From the NCBI GenBank assembly GCA_020847435.1, contig JADLBX010000012.1:62001-126000 (forward strand): a stretch of 64,000 bases of DNA. Direction: 5' to 3'. The stretch is from Anaerolineales bacterium. Its GTDB lineage: Bacteria > Chloroflexota > Anaerolineae > Anaerolineales > Villigracilaceae. Position numbers and translations under genes: made by a program. The notes under the pieces were generated by a model that was not told where the DNA came from, did not search any database, and was given only the letters and a program-made list of their open reading frames with translations. Shown here in pieces: positions 4,891 through 60,735 of this stretch (positions are counted from its first letter, which is position 1; each line of letters begins with the position of its first letter).

Positions 4891-5147
4891 CCCCCATCCC
4901 GTCCTTCCCCCAAATCAACGAGCGGATTTGGGGGAAGGGGAATGATTTGTTTTTATGGAAATTGATATTCATGTTCTCCCCCATTTGTGATCTTCAAATG
5001 GGGGAGATGTCCGAAGGGCAGAGGGGGTCGTTTTGTGCTAAACTCCCAACACAATCTCTAAACTCCAGTCTCCAGTCTCCAATTCTCTAATTCTCCAATC
5101 CTCCTCACTCACCAATTACCATTTACCAATTACTAATCACTCACCCC
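4891..5147. repeat. Intergenic repeat block: two hairpins plus octamer and heptamer arrays
   Basis: Contains CTTCCCCCAAAT ... ATTTGGGGGAAG and CTCCCCCATTTG ... CAAATGGGGGAG hairpins. Pyrimidine-rich 8-nt words follow (tctccaat tctctaat tctccaat), then 7-nt words (ccaatta ccattta ccaatta ctaatca ctcaccc) directly abutting the carboxyltransferase ATG. No gene and no SD sequence is seen here. Confidence 0.8.
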
Positions 5148-6788
<1,641 letters not shown>

Positions 6789-6791
<3 letters not shown>

Positions 6792-6830
6792 AAAGTAGAA
6801 AGTAGAAAGTGGAAAGTGAGGAGTGAATGA
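6789..6830. repeat. Heptamer array supplying stop, RBS and start codons
   Basis: Six heptamers: tagaaag x3, tggaaag, tgaggag, tgaatga. The first TAG is the stop of the upstream gene. The GAGGAG is the SD, and the ATG in the last word is the start of the four-helix-bundle gene. It is the reverse-complement theme of the array at 7306-7368. Confidence 0.85.
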
Positions 6831-7306
6831 ATTATCAAGAATGGATTTCGACCGTCCCTGAGGAAATAAGACAAGACCCGCTTTGGAGTCTTGAGGTATA
6901 TCGTCTCGGTTTATTGGTCGGTGATGTTACTTGGGAGGACACAGAGCAACTGGATAAAAACTCACACACACGCGGCGCCGCCGATCAAATTCGCCGTTCG
7001 TTGGACTCGATCAGCGCCAACATCGCCGAGGGCTATTCACGTTCTACAGGGAAAGACCGCGCCCGTTATTTCGAATATTCGCTGGGGGAAGCGCGAGAAG
7101 CGCGTGACCGATATTATAAAGTTCGCCGCGCTCTCAAACAGGAAGTCGTTGCTCATCGGATCAAACTGTTGACTCAAATCGTCAAAATCCTCAACTCCTT
7201 TGTCCCAACGCAACGAAAACGCGGAATTAGAGAGGAGAAAGGCATTTACATCACCTTCTCCGAATTTGAAAACGAGATTCTCCTCTCACCAATACCAACG
7301 CCTTAA
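6827..7306 (+). CDS. Four-helix bundle protein (23S rRNA intervening-sequence / S23 family)
   Basis: A 159 aa protein with the family hallmarks LWSLEVYRLGLLV near the N-terminus, AADQIRRSLDSISANIAEGYSR in the middle and FEYSLGEAREARDRYYKVRR after it. Proteins of this family are encoded in rRNA intervening sequences, occur as solitary genes, and are related to the Avd accessory protein of diversity-generating retroelements; no reverse transcriptase is nearby. The N-terminus (about 30 aa) and the C-terminal tail after LNSFVPTQR are longer than in minimal members. It splits the carboxylase operon and is bracketed by inverted heptamer arrays, so it looks like an inserted cassette. Molecular function is unknown. 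Confidence 0.85.
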   Translation: MNYQEWISTVPEEIRQDPLWSLEVYRLGLLVGDVTWEDTEQLDKNSHTRGAADQIRRSLDSISANIAEGYSRSTGKDRARYFEYSLGEAREARDRYYKVRRALKQEVVAHRIKLLTQIVKILNSFVPTQRKRGIREEKGIYITFSEFENEILLSPIPTP

Positions 7307-7368
7307 CTCACCACTTCCCACTTTCCATTCACTACTTTCCACTCGCCACTTCCCACTTTCCACTTTCC
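7306..7368. repeat. Heptamer array downstream of the S23 gene
   Basis: Nine consecutive words (actcacc acttccc actttcc attcact actttcc actcgcc acttccc actttcc actttcc). It begins on the last base of the S23 stop codon and ends immediately before AAAGGAA, the SD of the next gene. It is complementary to the array at 6789-6830. Confidence 0.88.
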
Positions 7369-7381
7369 AAAGGAATTTACC

Positions 7382-11710: not shown

Positions 11711-12253
11711 ATGAACATGAAATGGTCAACCTCCCCTCATCGCCCACCTCACCTCTACGTTGACAACGCATGGTATTTCATCACCGCTTCCATCGTAGAC
11801 AAACAACGCATCATATCTTCCGACGCGCATTTCACGATCTGGGTCAAGGCATTCAAAGAGTTGATCGCCGAGTTCGATGCGAATTTGGCGGCATGGGTTA
11901 TCCTTGCCAACCATTATCACTTTCTCTTTCTTCCTCGGCATGGAATTGAATTGGGAAAGTTCATGAAGCGGCTGAATGGGCGGACTGCCAAAGAATTGAA
12001 CGCGTTGGATCATGCGCTGGGCAGAACGGTTTGGTACAGTTACTGGGATACCTGTATCCGCGGCGAACGCGATTTTTGGACGCGCTTCAATTACATCCAT
12101 ATAAATCCCGTCAAGCATGGCTACGTCGAACATCCCGAAGATTGGAAATATTCGAGTATTCATCAATATACAGGCGAGGATAATAAACTCTGGTTGGCGG
12201 ATTGTGTACGAGAATTCCCCGTTCTAAATTTGTTCGAGGACGATGCGTTTTAA
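11711..12253 (+). CDS. REP-associated tyrosine transposase (RAYT1, Y1/IS200-like)
   Basis: A 180 aa single-strand transposase of the RAYT clade. The N-terminal PPHLYVDNAWYFITASIVDKQ strand leads to the HUH metal motif NHYHFLF (two histidines near residues 68 and 70). The downstream helix SYWDTCIRGERDFWTRFNYIHINPVKHGYV matches the RAYT pattern, with the probable catalytic Tyr in YWD. No partner tnpB is present. It is flanked by copies of GCGGACTNAAGTCCGC on both sides, the expected arrangement for a RAYT and its cognate REP. ATG 11711 is used; 11717 is an alternative. Confidence 0.9.
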   Translation: MNMKWSTSPHRPPHLYVDNAWYFITASIVDKQRIISSDAHFTIWVKAFKELIAEFDANLAAWVILANHYHFLFLPRHGIELGKFMKRLNGRTAKELNALDHALGRTVWYSYWDTCIRGERDFWTRFNYIHINPVKHGYVEHPEDWKYSSIHQYTGEDNKLWLADCVREFPVLNLFEDDAF

Positions 12254-19112: not shown

Positions 19113-19130
19113 GGGAGGAAAGAGATGAGA

Positions 19131-19202
19131 ATTGGAGAATTGGAGGATTGGAGGATTGGAGAATTGGAGGATTGAAGATTAGAGACTAGAGATTGAAGAA
19201 AG
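19131..19202. repeat. Octamer array (ATTGGAGA theme)
   Basis: Nine exact 8-nt steps: attggaga attggagg attggagg attggaga attggagg attgaaga ttagagac tagagatt gaagaaag. It is related to the array at 30941-30968 and, by complement, to 5059-5098. Confidence 0.9.
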
Positions 19203-19211
19203 AAACATGAT

Positions 19212-19315
19212 ACGAGTTACAAGTTACGTGTTTCCTTGTCTACGTGTTTACGTGTTTACGTGTTTCCTTGTTTACCTGTTTACCTGTTTCCTTGTCTACG
19301 TGCCTACCTGTTCAC
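19212..19315. repeat. Octamer array (GTGTTTAC theme)
   Basis: Thirteen 8-nt steps, among them gtgtttcc ttgtctac gtgtttac gtgtttac gtgtttcc ttgtttac ctgtttac ctgtttcc. It runs into the stop codon of the amidase. The same theme recurs at 39860-39899. Confidence 0.9.
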
Positions 19316-26396: not shown

Positions 26397-26978
26397 GTGC
26401 CATCGAAATTCGATCCGCAGAAACATCATCGTCGTTCGATCCGATTGCCAGGATATGATTATTCACAGGTAGGCGCGTACCATATGACGATCGTTACGTG
26501 GCAGAGAGAATCGTTATTTGGATTTGTGGAGAACGGGGAGATGAAATTGAATCAATTTGGCATGGTTGCTCTGCAACAATGGGAAAAACTGCCGAAACGA
26601 TTTCCAAACGTCGAGCTTGGCGCATACGTCATTATGCCGACGCATATGCACGGGATTATTGAAATCACGCCTCGTAGGGGCACGGCGGAAAATCAGATAA
26701 ACTTTGACGGAGAATCGTTCCGCCGTGCCCCTACGCATGAACAATTTCAAAAACCTGTGAAAGGTTCTATACCGACAATCATTCGTTCGTATAAATCGTC
26801 GGTTTCTTATCGAATCAATTTGATGCGAGTGACCGAGGGCGTTCCAGTTTGGCAGAGGAATTATTACGAACACATTATTCGCAACGAGAAAGATTTACAA
26901 AACAAAACCGATTACATCGAATCCAACCCCATGTTGTGGGATGATGATGAAAATAATCCCAAAAATGTGAAACCGTAG
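26397..26978 (+). CDS. REP-associated tyrosine transposase (RAYT2) with its own REP inserted in frame
   Basis: 193 aa from GTG 26397 (MPSKFDPQKHHRRSIRLPGYD, the typical start of this RAYT clade); the longer track start overlaps the divergent aminotransferase. The HUH motif is MPTHMHGIIEI near residue 83. IPTIIRSYKSSVSYRIN and NYYEHIIRNEKDLQNKTDYIESNP carry the probable catalytic Tyr. Residues about 93-113 (PRRGTAENQINFDGESFRRAP) are encoded by a 63-nt REP unit, exactly 21 codons, placed directly after the HUH strand. The stop codon TAG is the GTAG of the first downstream REP copy. Confidence 0.9.
   Translation: MPSKFDPQKHHRRSIRLPGYDYSQVGAYHMTIVTWQRESLFGFVENGEMKLNQFGMVALQQWEKLPKRFPNVELGAYVIMPTHMHGIIEITPRRGTAENQINFDGESFRRAPTHEQFQKPVKGSIPTIIRSYKSSVSYRINLMRVTEGVPVWQRNYYEHIIRNEKDLQNKTDYIESNPMLWDDDENNPKNVKP
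26673..26735. repeat. REP type 2 unit inside RAYT2, in frame
   Basis: GTAGGGGCACGGCGGAA (26674-26690) pairs perfectly with TTCCGCCGTGCCCCTAC (26718-26734). The centre AATCAGATAAACTTTGACGGAGAATCG matches the centre of the downstream copies. Confidence 0.92.
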
Positions 26979-27138
26979 GGGCACGGCGGGGAATCAGATA
27001 AATTTTGACAGTGATCGTTCCACCGACGTAGGGGCACGGCTGGAATCGGATAAATTTTGACAGTGATCGTTCCGCCGACGTAGGGGCACGGCGGGAATCG
27101 GATAAATTTTGACAGTGATCGTTCCGCCGTGCCCCTAC
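26975..27138. repeat. Tandem REP type 2 array downstream of RAYT2
   Basis: Three head-to-tail units of about 52-59 nt starting at 26975, 27028 and 27080, each GTAGGGGCACGGC.GG, a conserved centre (GATAAATTTTGACAGTGATCG) and a TTCC[AG]CCG right arm. Only the third closes the full palindrome with CCGCCGTGCCCCTAC. There are no unique spacers, so it is not CRISPR. Confidence 0.92.
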
Positions 27139-29589: not shown

Positions 29590-29703
29590 ACACGAAGGAC
29601 ACGAAGAACACAAAGGAATTAACCGCAAAGTGCGCTATGGGCGCAAAGATTGAATGATTTTTTCTTACGGGCATAGCGTTCCTCGCGGTTCAAAGGAGTT
29701 TTT
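29590..29703. repeat. Nonamer repeats between E1 and E2
   Basis: acacgaagg acacgaaga acacaaagg at 29590-29616, then the aaccgcaaa gtgcgctat gggcgcaaa hairpin closing with CGCGGTTC at about 29690. The CAAAGGAG at its end is the E2 SD. Confidence 0.78.
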
Positions 29704-30933
29704 ATGGCAACCAAAGTGCTTGTCCCATTGCTCGGCGAAGGGGTCGAAGAAGTAACTGTCATCAAATGGTTGAAAAAGGAAGGCGACTCAGTTAAAGAAC
29801 TGGAGCCGCTTCTCGAAGTGAACACCGACAAGGTAGACACTGAAATCCCCGCGCCTGCGTCTGGGACGGTGTTGAAGATCGTGGCGGAGGAGGGTATCCC
29901 TGCGAAGGTGGGGGCGGTGCTGGCGTTCATCGGGAAGGTGGGGGAATCGGTGGAGAGCGCTTCAATATCAAATGCTCCTGCAAAAACAGAGTCGAAAGTG
30001 GAAAGTCAAAAGTCGGAGGGGCAACCTGCGACTTTGAACCTTAGACCTTCGACCGATCTAGGTTTCATCTCGCCCGTCGTGGCAAAGATCGCGGCGGAGC
30101 ATGGCGTCAATTTACAACAGGTGCAAGGCACGGGGATGAATGGGCGGATCACGAAGAACGACGTGCTGAATTATGTGGAAAATGGAAAGATGAAAGAGGA
30201 AAGAGGAAAAGAAGTTGTCGCTTCACGATCCACGCCACACGCAACCTCGGCGGTTGGCGACCAACTCATCAAACATTCCGTCATCCGCAAGTCCATCGCG
30301 GAGCATATGGTCATGTCCAAGCGCACGTCGCCGCACGTGTTGACAGTGATGGAAGCGGATATGCACCGTGTTGTCAAACATCGTTCCGCCAACAAGGAAA
30401 TTTTCTCGCGCGATGGAGTCAATCTCACGTTTACCGCCTATTTCATGATGGCAATTGTGGCGGGATTGAAGAATCATCCGATAGTCAACTCCTCGTGGAC
30501 GGACGAGGGCGTACTGGTACACAAGGCGGTCAACCTCGGCATGGCAACGTCGCTTGGAGAAGACGGCTTGATTGTTCCCGTTATCAAAGGCGCGGATAAT
30601 CTGTCTCTGCTGGCGACGGCGCGCGCGGTCAACGATTTGGCGAATCGCGCCCGCTCGAAGAAATTGCAGACCGATGAGGTGAAAGGCGGCACGTTCACGT
30701 TGACCAATCACGGAATTAGCGGATCGTTGTTTGCGTTCCCAGTCATCAACCAGCCGCAATGCGGAATTTTAGGCATCGGCGCGATGCAGAAGCGCGTGGT
30801 GGTGATAGATGACGCGATCGCCATCCGCCCGATGGTGTATTTGTCGTTCGTGTTCGATCATCGCATCCTTGATGGCGCCTCAGCGGATAATTTCTTGATG
30901 AAGGTGAAGGAGACGTTGGAGGGGTGGAATTAA
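29704..30933 (+). CDS. 2-oxoacid dehydrogenase E2, dihydrolipoamide acyltransferase
   Basis: 409 aa with the standard order: lipoyl domain (1-76; EVNTDKVDTEI carries the lipoylated Lys), a linker, the peripheral subunit-binding domain (FISPVVAKIAAEHGVNLQQV, about 119-155), a second linker, and the acyltransferase domain ending VFDHRILDGASADNFL with the catalytic HRxxDG. Both linkers coincide with heptamer arrays: residues 97-117 (63 nt, nine heptamers) and about 158-169 (35 nt). Here repeat insertion may have shaped a normally Ala/Pro-rich flexible linker. Confidence 0.92.
   Translation: MATKVLVPLLGEGVEEVTVIKWLKKEGDSVKELEPLLEVNTDKVDTEIPAPASGTVLKIVAEEGIPAKVGAVLAFIGKVGESVESASISNAPAKTESKVESQKSEGQPATLNLRPSTDLGFISPVVAKIAAEHGVNLQQVQGTGMNGRITKNDVLNYVENGKMKEERGKEVVASRSTPHATSAVGDQLIKHSVIRKSIAEHMVMSKRTSPHVLTVMEADMHRVVKHRSANKEIFSRDGVNLTFTAYFMMAIVAGLKNHPIVNSSWTDEGVLVHKAVNLGMATSLGEDGLIVPVIKGADNLSLLATARAVNDLANRARSKKLQTDEVKGGTFTLTNHGISGSLFAFPVINQPQCGILGIGAMQKRVVVIDDAIAIRPMVYLSFVFDHRILDGASADNFLMKVKETLEGWN
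29992..30054. repeat. In-frame array of nine heptamers in the E2 linker
   Basis: tcgaaag tggaaag tcaaaag tcggagg ggcaacc tgcgact ttgaacc ttagacc ttcgacc: 63 nt = 9 x 7 = 21 codons. The two halves are roughly inverted complements. Confidence 0.85.
30176..30210. repeat. In-frame purine heptamer array in the second E2 linker
   Basis: tggaaaa tggaaag atgaaag aggaaag aggaaaa, encoding a charged Lys/Glu-rich linker. Confidence 0.75.
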
Positions 30934-39786: not shown

Positions 39787-39803
39787 GCAGGGAGGCGCGT
39801 ACA

Positions 39804-39899
39804 CAAGTAGACACGTAGATACGTAGAAAAAAAACAGGTAAACACTGGAAACATATTTCCGTGTTTACCTGTTTTCTTGTTTACTTGTTTCCGTACTTC
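39804..39899. repeat. Self-complementary octamer array
   Basis: Twelve 8-nt steps: caagtaga cacgtaga tacgtaga aaaaaaac aggtaaac actggaaa catatttc cgtgttta cctgtttt cttgttta cttgtttc cgtacttc. The left and right halves are inverted complements, so it can fold into a long hairpin between convergent genes. Confidence 0.88.
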
Positions 39900-58084: not shown

Positions 58085-59246
58085 CGAAAGACCTCCATTC
58101 GTTTTCATCCAACCGAACGCTCTCACCGCTTTGACGTGAGATGTTCAGCATAATGCCGATCGCACACAACGTCGAAACGAGGTTCGAACCGCCCGCGCTG
58201 ATGAACGGCAACGCGTTCCCAGCGAAAGGCATCAACCCAACCATCACTGCCATGTTAATCGCGGCTTCGACGCCGATCCAAAACGTGACGCCGGCGGCGA
58301 GCAACGTGCCGAGCATATCCGGCGCGCGGCGCGCCACCACCAAGCCGCGCCAGATCAACGCGCCATACAAAGCCATGAGCAGGGTCGAGCCGAACAAGCC
58401 GAGCTCCTCCGCGATCACCGCAAAGATGCTGTCGGTCGGCGCGAAGGGCAAACCGGTTAACTTCGTATCCGCCTGCCCCAAACCCACGCCGAAGATGCCG
58501 CCTTTGATGATCGCCTCGAACGAACGCTGGACGTGATACGACGCGTGAGTCGGGTCCTGAAAACCGGCAATGAACGTATCAACCCGGTCACGCCCGGTCA
58601 CGCTGAACTGCACGATCACCCAGCCGATGACGAGCGCCAGCGCCAGCAGGAAGACGATCTGCTTCAAATCTGCCCCAGCCAGAAAGAACAACGCGCCGCC
58701 GAGGATCAACACTGTGCCTGCCGCGCTCAAATCGGGTTGCAAATAGATCAAGCCGCCGATAATTCCCAAAATCACGCCAAGCGGAATCAAACCAAAACTC
58801 ACATAGTGCAGGTTCTGCCGCTTCGCATACAGCCACACCGCCAGGTAGATCACCGTCACGAGTTTCGCCAGTTCCGAGGGTTGGTACGAACCCTCGAACA
58901 ACGTGCGCGAGGCGCCGAGCCGAATCTCGTTGATGAACAACACTGTCACCAACAAGCCGATCGTGCCCAGCATGGCGAGCACCACCACTTTGCGCCAGAG
59001 GTGATAATCGAACAACGAAAGCACGAACGCCGCGACCACGCCGATGCCCAGCCAGCGCAATTGGCGCATGAACATGTACGTGGACGATTTATACTCGTTG
59101 AACGAAAAATCGAACGAGGCGGAATACAACATGATCAAACCGAAGACTGCCAGCGCGATCACCGTCAACAGCAACGGCATGTCCAACCCGCGCCCGAGAT
59201 TCTTCGTCAGCGAAAAACGTTCGTTTACAAAAGCTCTTGAACCCAT
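58005..59246 (-). CDS. ftsW: Lipid II-polymerising division protein FtsW (SEDS)
   Basis: 413 aa, ten membrane helices. SEDS hallmarks: ASRTLFEGSYQPSELAKLVTVIYLAVWL, IYLQPDLSAAGTVLILGGALFFLAGA, DPTHASYHVQRSFEAIIKGGIFGVGLGQ, FAVIAEELGLFGSTLLMALYGALIWRG and LPFISAGGSNLVSTLCAIGIMLN. The cytosolic C-terminal 45 residues are basic. The start overlaps murD by 22 nt and the 3' end overlaps murG by 80 nt. FtsW rather than RodA is inferred from the division-cluster context. Confidence 0.94.
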   Translation of the reverse strand: MGSRAFVNERFSLTKNLGRGLDMPLLLTVIALAVFGLIMLYSASFDFSFNEYKSSTYMFMRQLRWLGIGVVAAFVLSLFDYHLWRKVVVLAMLGTIGLLVTVLFINEIRLGASRTLFEGSYQPSELAKLVTVIYLAVWLYAKRQNLHYVSFGLIPLGVILGIIGGLIYLQPDLSAAGTVLILGGALFFLAGADLKQIVFLLALALVIGWVIVQFSVTGRDRVDTFIAGFQDPTHASYHVQRSFEAIIKGGIFGVGLGQADTKLTGLPFAPTDSIFAVIAEELGLFGSTLLMALYGALIWRGLVVARRAPDMLGTLLAAGVTFWIGVEAAINMAVMVGLMPFAGNALPFISAGGSNLVSTLCAIGIMLNISRQSGESVRLDENEWRSFGAVIDLRRGNGRRSVSRARRSQRADG

Positions 59247-60679
59247 GCTCGAAACCTTTCTCCGCGCTCCTCAAAATCTTTGAACTCATCGAAACTCGTG
59301 GCGCCCGGCGCCAACAGGACGACATCGCCAGCCCGCGCAACCTCCGCCGCCTGGATGACCGCCTGCTGCAACCCATCCACGCGCGTGATGGAAAACCGTT
59401 TCGCCCCGGACGGGAGGCTGTTCGCCGCTCGTTCAATTTTCTCCGCCGCTTCGCCGAAAAGTATCGCGCAGCGTACGCGTTCCGCCGCGAGTTGCATCAA
59501 CCCCTCCCACGGCAGATTCTTATCGCGCCCGCCGAGCAACAGTACCAGCGGCTCCTCGAACGAGCGGATGGCGGCGATGGTGCGCTCCGGCGCGCTGGCG
59601 ATCGAATCGTTGTACCAATGCACGCCGCGCAATTCACGCACGAACTCCAAGCGATGCGGCACGCCGCGGAATTCCTCCACCGCCGCGATCATCGCCGCAG
59701 GCGGAAAGCCCGCCGCGTGACCGATGGCAAACGCGGCAAGCGCGTTCGCCACATTATGATCGCCGCGCAACCGAATATTCTCGCGCGGCATCAGCGGAAC
59801 GCGTGCGCCGCCCTCGCGCAGATTCAACCTGCCCGCGTCGAGATAAGCGCCGTCCAAACCTGCATCGAGAGTCTTCAGGCTGAACGTCATCAGCGTCCCT
59901 TTCACTTTTTCGCGCAGACTCCACGCGCCTGCGTCGTCGCGTCCCAACACCGCCACATCGTCCTGCGCTTGAAACTCCAAAATGCGACTCTTCGCCGCCG
60001 TGTATGCTTCCATCGTGCCGTGCCGGTCTAAATGGTTCGGCGTGACGTTCAAAACTGCGGCAATATTCGGAGAGCGGGTCATTTGCTCCAGTTGAAAGGA
60101 TGAAAGTTCCAGCACAGCCAGGTCGTCGGGTTTCATCTCATCCACATACTTCAACAACGGGTCGCCAAGGTTGCCGCCGACAAAAGCAGAAGGATGAGTT
60201 GTGAAGGATGAAGGATGAATTTCTTTGGATGATAACAATGATTCATCCTTCATCCTTTTTCCTTCATCCTTGAAAGCAAGCTTCGCCATGTTTCCAACCA
60301 GCGTGGTGGTGGTCGTCTTGCCTGCTGAACCAGTGACGCCAATGGTCTTGCACGGGACAACTTCCATGAAGATCTGCGAATCGTTCGTGAGCGGAATGCC
60401 CCGCTTGCCGGCTTCCATCACAATCGGCAAGGTGAGCGGGATTCCGCCGGAGAGGCACAACACATCCATCGCGTCCAACAACTCGAGCGGATGCCCGCCC
60501 AGCGCCCAATCAATTTGATATTCCGCCAGCGACTCGCGCGCCACGCGCAACTCATCCGCGCCGCGCAGGTCGCTGACTGTGACGCGCGCGCCATGCAGAG
60601 ACAGCCAGCGCGCCAAAGCCAGCCCCTGACGGGCGGCGCCGAGTATCAAAACGCGTTTATCTTTCCAGTTCGTTTTCAT
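59225..60679 (-). CDS. murD: UDP-N-acetylmuramoylalanine--D-glutamate ligase with repeat-encoded insertion
   Basis: 484 aa. Rossmann start RVLILGAARQGLALARWLSLHG, ATP P-loop GVTGSAGKTTTTTLVGNMAKLAF, VLELSSFQLEQM, NVTPNHLDRHGTMEAY, and C-terminal WYNDSIASAPERTIAAI and LLLGGRDKNLPW. Residues about 137-164 (DEGKRMKDESLLSSK ... PSA, 28 residues) interrupt the normal 'MAKLAFK-FVGGNLG' order and match exactly an 84-nt heptamer palindrome. Without it the length is about 456, the usual value. Its leader has no clear SD. Confidence 0.95.
   Translation of the reverse strand: MKTNWKDKRVLILGAARQGLALARWLSLHGARVTVSDLRGADELRVARESLAEYQIDWALGGHPLELLDAMDVLCLSGGIPLTLPIVMEAGKRGIPLTNDSQIFMEVVPCKTIGVTGSAGKTTTTTLVGNMAKLAFKDEGKRMKDESLLSSKEIHPSSFTTHPSAFVGGNLGDPLLKYVDEMKPDDLAVLELSSFQLEQMTRSPNIAAVLNVTPNHLDRHGTMEAYTAAKSRILEFQAQDDVAVLGRDDAGAWSLREKVKGTLMTFSLKTLDAGLDGAYLDAGRLNLREGGARVPLMPRENIRLRGDHNVANALAAFAIGHAAGFPPAAMIAAVEEFRGVPHRLEFVRELRGVHWYNDSIASAPERTIAAIRSFEEPLVLLLGGRDKNLPWEGLMQLAAERVRCAILFGEAAEKIERAANSLPSGAKRFSITRVDGLQQAVIQAAEVARAGDVVLLAPGATSFDEFKDFEERGERFRAWVQELL
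60188..60271. repeat. 84-nt in-frame heptamer palindrome in murD
   Basis: Twelve consecutive heptamers: agaagga tgagttg tgaagga tgaagga tgaattt ctttgga tgataac aatgatt catcctt catcctt tttcctt catcctt. GAAGGATGAAGGATGAAT (60203-60220) pairs with ATTCATCCTTCATCCTT (60241-60257). Confidence 0.92.
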
Positions 60680-60735
60680 CGTTATACAAAAGTAATCGGT
60701 AAACGGTAATTACCAATTACTAATTACCATTACAC
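60680..60735. repeat. Heptamer array between murD and mraY
   Basis: gtaatcg gtaaacg gtaatta ccaatta ctaatta ccattac, self-complementary (GGTAATT/AATTACC). It runs into the mraY stop codon. Confidence 0.8.

Follow-up and report, generated by a model that had tools for sequence, protein, structure and literature searches.

An in-frame heptamer hairpin in murD of an Anaerolineales bacterium as a probable gene-less copy of an S23-linked mobile element

The murD gene, an essential cell-wall gene, of an uncultured Anaerolineales bacterium (Villigracilaceae) contains an in-frame hairpin built of tandem 7-nt words. This insert is probably a solo copy, lacking the gene, of a mobile hairpin that in its gene-bearing form has an S23 gene between inverted arms. 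In that form a PF05635 gene has an arm of about four tandem 7-nt words on either side, the two arms are inverted relative to each other, and the word, which is specific to the S23 clade, tracks the protein. The same arms also occur apart from the gene, dispersed singly or as inverted pairs over both intergenic and intragenic positions. The gene-bearing copy that matches the murD insert is S23 locus L292/L404 of the same genome, which has AAGGATG arms. The DNA analyzed is a 64,000-nt stretch (GCA_020847435.1, contig JADLBX010000012.1, positions 62,001-126,000 of the forward strand), referred to here as the window.

The murD gene lies on the reverse strand (59225..60679) and codes for 484 amino acids with three MurD domains (PF08245, PF02875, and PF21799). 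The hairpin segment of 84 nt (60188..60271, reverse strand) encodes MurD residues 137-164, KDEGKRMKDESLLSSKEIHPSSFTTHPS. A preliminary description had reported an 84-nt palindrome at this position that preserves the reading frame, and both points are borne out. The hairpin is strong (z = -5.9; 0 of 200 shuffles as good), the segment is self-similar at lag 7 to a degree that none of 200 shuffles reaches, and the 484-aa frame is intact across the insert. The same description counted twelve perfect 7-nt steps, and here the anatomy is different. In the reading direction, a first arm of 30 nt (60242..60271, AAGGATG AAGGAAA AAGGATG AAGGATG AA) is followed by a 22-nt spacer (60220..60241) that is unrelated to the arms and differs in sequence between copies, and then by a second, inverted arm of 30 nt (60190..60219, TTCATCC TTCATCC TTCACAA CTCATCC TT), all on the reverse strand. 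Because each arm consists of four words with a divergent second word, and the middle is unrelated, the segment is not a run of twelve perfect heptamers. The second arm is the inverse of AAGGATG-AGTTGTG-AAGGATG-AAGGATG-AA, with its own variant word, and the two arms are alike at 24 of 30 positions. The second arm can be compared with TTCATCCTTCATAATTCATCCTTCATCCTT, which follows the S23 gene L292/L404 on its downstream side. Close relatives have the bare loop NMAKLAYGDKAYVGGN. The segment does code for the 28 residues that had been described as extra, while the net gain over the bare loop is 25 because a few native MurD residues are replaced.

Loops were extracted from 137 MurD relatives, and the loop-less remainder of the MurD proteins served to build a tree. 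The loop is bare in about half of these relatives, and most of the others have period-7 inserts of differing words. Insertion in frame into an essential gene is thus supported by the existence of bare-loop relatives, some of which are near neighbors of insert carriers. The expectation that all other MurD proteins would show a gap at residues 137-164 fails as it was worded, because about half of them carry other inserts at the same place. Loop lengths range from 18 to 51 residues, with bare loops at 18-22 and inserts at up to 51. Among the 70 loop inserts with 24 residues or more, 57 have 7 as their best self-lag, and bare loops have no preferred lag. The insert words include AAGGATG, GAC-words (GGACGAT and GGACCGT), AATGCAG, AAGGCAG, AATTCAG, AATCGT, AACCTGC, and AACCCCT. 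On the tree, insert presence changes at least 25 times and word class at least 46 times (shuffled mean 53, range 47-56). Allele transfer and the quick tree method could alter both counts, and the word classes were set by hand, since single-linkage clustering merged nearly all words into one network. Near neighbors on the tree differ both in presence (L006 with an insert, L033 bare) and in word (AATTCAG in L081, AAGGATG in L156). The MurD loop is an insertion hotspot. Inserts of other repeat families are found in L012 and in part of L016 and L147: L012 has a PHPNPLPQGEG-type palindrome, and repeats of the LALSEVEG / LALSEAEA type or the TPLRAG type are nested within the heptamer inserts of L016, L147, and L155. 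Inserts without a period occur in L019, L022, and L151. The predicted MurD structure has a mean pLDDT of 89, and residues 149-161, at pLDDT below 50, fall between helix 121-147 and strand 165-169. To the question raised earlier, whether the segment is a surface loop, this model answers with a disordered surface loop, and the site is tolerant of inserts.

The murD word reflects the word pool of the genome that carries it. Among 38 genomes, tandem copies of this word outside murD are more numerous in the carrier genome than in genomes whose murD has a different word or none (p = 0.007, 0.010, and 0.004 for three word classes; these values are optimistic because the genomes are related). Bare-loop genomes are poorer in all three words (1.3 vs. 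7.2 copies per Mb). Copying acts on whole arms. An exact match to the 30-nt arm AAGGATGAAGGCGGAAGGATGAAGGATGAA occurs 10 times in ten genomes, compared to 2 for a rearranged control. One occurrence is in the murD of genome G120, and most others are at unrelated loci with sharp ends. The sequences to the left and right are unrelated at most of these loci, some have a single arm and others an inverted pair, and the spacer between paired arms has no conserved sequence. Inspected by eye, the loci that share this arm have no consistent target-site duplication. A murD-type arm with AAGGCGG as its second word recurs at unrelated loci. Outside murD, array length peaks at 30-33 nt, and neighboring arms are inverted in 36 cases and direct in 4, with the purine-rich arm first in 29 of 30 clear cases; thirty of the loci that entered this count of length and orientation had been picked for an AAGGATG arm. 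A fixed position of the variant word was considered as a general rule and set aside, as the unit-position count on mixed words was uninformative.

The S23 genes carry the other half of the evidence. The gene-bearing form within the window is an S23 (23S_rRNA_IVP, PF05635) gene of 159 aa (6827..7306, forward strand) with a different word, GGAAAGT. Its upstream array of GAAAGTA/GGAAAGT words is at 6784..6826 and its downstream inverted array of CCACTTT words is at 7311..7369, both given on the forward strand. Inverted arms flank all five S23 genes of this genome. The word is particular to each gene, and all five belong to the words that are common as solo copies here. The AAGGATG arms of L292/L404 (contig C32) match the murD insert with a cosine of 0.74. 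Of 109 Anaerolineales S23 loci, 81 have an array in the 200 nt upstream of the gene and 70 in the 200 nt downstream, whereas control windows of the same loci, 350-750 nt away, have arrays in 35 of 436. Taken together with 18 plasmid loci, arms are present beside 64-100% of S23 genes vs. 7-8% of control windows. Where both flanks have arrays, 62 are inverted and 2 are direct. Word similarity climbs steeply with S23 identity, even for pairs with unrelated outer flanks: for non-orthologous pairs the word cosine is 0.014 below 50% identity, 0.26 at 70-80%, and 0.52 at 80% or more. Within the L292 clade the words by S23 identity are AAGGATG (about 75% and above), AAAGATG (70-76%), AATTATG (64-66%), AATGCAG (58-62%; for the AATGCAG test the S23 clade, at 57-63%, was chosen after the arms had been seen), and AAATCGT (about 40%). 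Genomes with an AAGGATG-clade S23 are richer in AAGGATG copies (median 11.5 vs. 4, p = 7e-5). They also have that word in murD more often (9/13 vs. 7/25, p = 0.018), and an AAGGATG-clade S23 is also present in 7 of 25 genomes without AAGGATG in murD. An own-genome S23 arm clearly matches the insert for only 4 of 28 murD inserts tested, counting the best-scoring S23 loci (overall p = 0.026). Relatedness among the genomes makes the p-values of these S23 comparisons, too, smaller than they should be. Solved structures related to S23 are 2rld and 2gsc, the latter being XCC0516 of Xanthomonas. S23 is a small four-helix bundle that is not known to contain a nuclease or recombinase domain, and no activity is known for it.

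Arrays without a gene are common in this genome. In 310 kb, lag 7 gives 44 arrays and lag 8 gives 24 (shuffles 0 and 2), while lags 5, 10, 11, and 13 yield 0-3. In-frame arrays lie in linkers, between domains or within them, in dihydrolipoamide acyltransferase, acyl-CoA carboxyltransferase, MutS2, and an FAD-dependent oxidoreductase with GcvT domains. In the window (forward strand), a solo inverted pair of GGAAAGT words (5965..6011) is in frame in the acyl-CoA carboxyltransferase (ORF 5091-6788, PF01039; ORF residues 292-307). The dihydrolipoamide acyltransferase (29677-30930) has two in-frame solo arrays, one (29990..30014) in the linker that precedes its E3-binding domain and one (30176..30209) in the linker that follows it. 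A solo hairpin of GGTAATT-type words (60692..60733) lies between mraY and murD. Intergenic arrays of 8-nt words include an inverted pair (39799..39890; GTAGACAC / TGTTTACC) and the arrays at 19127..19310 (GAGAATTG and TTACGTGT). At 5063-5141 and 19127-19310, 7-nt words pass into similar 8-nt words (for example CTCCAGT into CTCCAATT), and unit length may shift by one inside an array. Local spreading of words was rejected, as arrays less than 3 kb apart are hardly more alike than those further apart (mean distance 2.55 vs. 2.83, n = 29). Elsewhere in the genome, MutS2 (L163:13048-15492, G000 contig C12) has three separate in-frame heptamer inserts, and a 3272-aa open frame (L169:4196-14011, G000 contig C6) has three 7- or 8-mer arrays in frame. 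A 52-bp tandem repeat in three copies (26974-27129, 95% matches) is unrelated to the heptamer words. The window also has a RAYT-like Y1 transposase gene at 11801-12049 (206-aa frame), and heptamer arrays are absent nearby.

The association of S23 with arms extends to other phyla. Among 18 plasmid-borne S23 genes of Cyanobacteriota, Chloroflexota, Bacteroidota, and Spirochaetota, an array is present upstream of 18 and downstream of 14 (controls 8 of 110). TTAGCGATTAGC is common to Pseudanabaena (L441) and Anaerolineales (L300 and L305), AGAAGGC-type words are shared by the S23 loci of Stanieria, Nostoc, and Calothrix, and the GAAAGTG word is found in Treponema and in the window. Plasmid S23 genes of cyanobacteria and Chlorohelix (L435, L440, L441, L444, L451, L445-L447, and L450) are often in or beside CRISPR-cas or other defense-like clusters, which include type I-D, III-B, cas1/cas2, DISARM, and DUF1156/HEPN. 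One S23 query gave no match in phage records. The heptamers known from earlier reports include the STRR of Calothrix and Nostoc, GGGGA(C/T)T of Nostoc and GGGAATC of Xanthomonas (PMC4692102), TAACTGA of Beggiatoaceae (PMC4679880), and (GATAGRA)n of Chloroflexus (PMC6749651). Arrays of Xanthomonas and Nostoc favor four units and many Xanthomonas arrays are convergent pairs (PMC4692102). Up to rotation and strand, the TAACTGA given there for Beggiatoaceae (PMC4679880) equals AGTTATC beside S23 gene L312, and the GGGGATT given for Nostoc (PMC4692102) equals CCCCAAT beside the Planktothrix S23 gene L447. S23 is not mentioned in the two papers on heptamer repeats in which it was looked for. In the open-access literature we found no link between S23 and scattered heptamer repeats; an earlier report may exist.

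Two known kinds of DNA are closest to the murD insert: the 23S intervening sequence (IVS) that codes for S23, and the heptamer repeats. The IVS of Coxiella, Leptospira, and others has an S23/IVP gene in the loop of its full form, as the S23-linked element does, and has been suggested to be mobile (PMC4990558). In Coxiella, three GACAGAT heptamers lie upstream of the S23 ORF with a strain-dependent copy number, its 28-bp terminal stem has the length of four heptamers, and IVS RNA is cut by RNase III (PMC4990558). Both the IVS and the murD insert form a stem from inverted terminal repeats, and both interrupt a loop of an essential product. The murD hairpin differs in being gene-less, translated, and located in a protein gene rather than in a 23S rRNA loop; the S23 ORF that it lacks is present in the gene-bearing relative with the same word in this genome. 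The full copies described here also differ from the IVS in that they lie between ordinary genes, their words vary by S23 clade, and arrays occur genome-wide. The murD insert is therefore not a 23S IVS as defined, being in another gene and having no ORF. Its arms are tandem 7-nt units, four to an arm, as is usual for STRR-type heptamers. With the heptamer repeats it shares the 7-nt unit, the four-unit preference, convergent pairs, and genome-wide scatter, whereas in-frame colonization of an essential enzyme is not described in the available parts of those reports (PMC4692102; PMC4679880; PMC6749651). The preliminary description had pointed to Rickettsia palindromic elements. These elements are palindromes that are inserted in frame in protein genes and tolerated there. 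The likeness holds for this behavior, since the murD insert is likewise an in-frame palindrome in a protein gene; by their description, those elements are Rickettsia sequence families with no tandem 7-nt words. Like a MITE, the murD insert has terminal inverted repeats, and the matching full element codes for S23, which is not known as a transposase. The REPIN and REP singlets with RAYT (PMC3116915) share short units, single or in inverted pairs with a spacer, and a partner gene in trans. In contrast, REPIN units are imperfect palindromes with a GTAG or CGTC tag, and the arm AAGGATGAAGGAAAAAGGATGAAGGATGAA has neither tag and no visible self-complementary stem. The partner here is S23 and not a tyrosine transposase, insertions within genes are common, and no RAYT gene is flanked by the unit. 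The murD insert is not a REPIN/RAYT member. We place it as the gene-less form of the S23-linked heptamer-arm element.

Other origins have to be weighed against this placement. That the loop simply evolves fast and varies in length, with no insertion in it, is hardly credible: the length range of 18-51 residues and the three inserts without a period would suit it, and against it stand the period of 7 in 57 of 70 inserts and in no bare loop, the DNA hairpins, the identical arms elsewhere in the genomes, and the fact that what recurs is the DNA word. It has also been suggested for bacterial heptamer repeats that polymerase slippage makes them in place, with 7 nt favored by the polymerase footprint, an idea retold in PMC4679880. 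On this account 7-nt arrays arise where they stand and hairpins follow by template switching, which would fit the standing of heptamers as the commonest long simple repeats of many genomes, the drift of words along some arrays, and the presence of lags 7 and 8 together. An array length that peaks at 30-33 nt instead of tailing off argues against it, as does the recurrence at unrelated loci in several genomes of one exact arm sequence, its variant second word included. The murD words moreover follow the genome pool, and inverted arrays adjoin S23 genes with a word that follows the protein. Slippage as sole origin was rejected on the length peak and the arm recurrence, and we consider it highly improbable as the explanation of the insert. 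Spread of whole insert-bearing murD alleles by horizontal transfer, with the number of insertions overstated, is very unlikely to account for the pattern. Inserts of one class are alike across genera (KDEGGRMKDE...HPSSFIIHPSVF in L153, with similar ones in L156 and L157), and scattered presence could be transfer. However, the words match the pool of the host genome, and transfer of a whole allele would keep insert and tree together because the tree was built from the rest of murD.

The remaining alternatives accept that the hairpins move and assign the movement differently. If a RAYT or another Y1 transposase moved them with S23 as a passenger, the five Y1_Tnp genes of the genome, one of them in the window, could supply the enzyme, and the single arms and inverted pairs do resemble REP singlets and REPIN doublets (PMC3116915). 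But no arrays lie beside the RAYT-like Y1 genes, the arms adjoin S23 genes instead, and the arm is not itself palindromic and has no GTAG head. We reject this explanation, to which we give only slight probability, since Y1 genes are present and the RAYT-like ones have no adjoining arrays. A further enzyme, such as a reverse transcriptase or a host recombinase with hairpins as its substrate, could move both arms and S23, with S23 only regulating or protecting the hairpin. S23 has no known catalytic domain, and Avd, which is related to it in fold, is the partner of a reverse transcriptase in diversity-generating retroelements. The Avd analogy, the missing catalytic domain, and the cutting of IVS RNA by RNase III (PMC4990558) all speak for such an enzyme, and as it is compatible with the link between arms and S23, there is little against it. 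We hold it to be unlikely, on balance, as a replacement for an S23-driven element; arms and S23 gene might also both be moved by some third factor.

For the S23-linked hairpin that we prefer, the following mechanism may be proposed. S23 would recognize its own word in the arm or hairpin, as DNA or as RNA, and a partner enzyme would then copy the hairpin into new places; candidate partners are RNase III processing, a reverse transcriptase, and a host recombinase. S23 would in this way mobilize the hairpin. The murD insert behaves like a mini intervening sequence within a protein gene. Mobility is read here from sequence patterns, no transposition event having been seen. The in-frame murD copies lie in a turn at the protein surface that connects the P-loop helix to the GGN strand, and the tolerance of this turn is probably why they are kept and why the MurD loop has been colonized repeatedly.

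Heptamer repeats are widespread and have been reported for decades. The present results suggest that the widespread heptamer arrays are pieces of one mobile element family. For the broader proposal we see about even chances: S23/IVP proteins would be word-specific mobilizers of pan-bacterial minimal hairpins, and the heptamer repeats of cyanobacteria, xanthomonads, Beggiatoaceae, and Chloroflexi, the 23S IVS, and the in-frame inserts would be forms of this element. The purpose of S23/IVP and the origin of heptamer repeats, two old puzzles, become one testable question, whether S23 recognizes its own word. The MurD loop is a natural record, since the presence of inserts has changed at least 25 times at this single tolerated site of an essential enzyme, and it is useful for dating the spread of the element and for learning how selfish DNA supplies protein segments.
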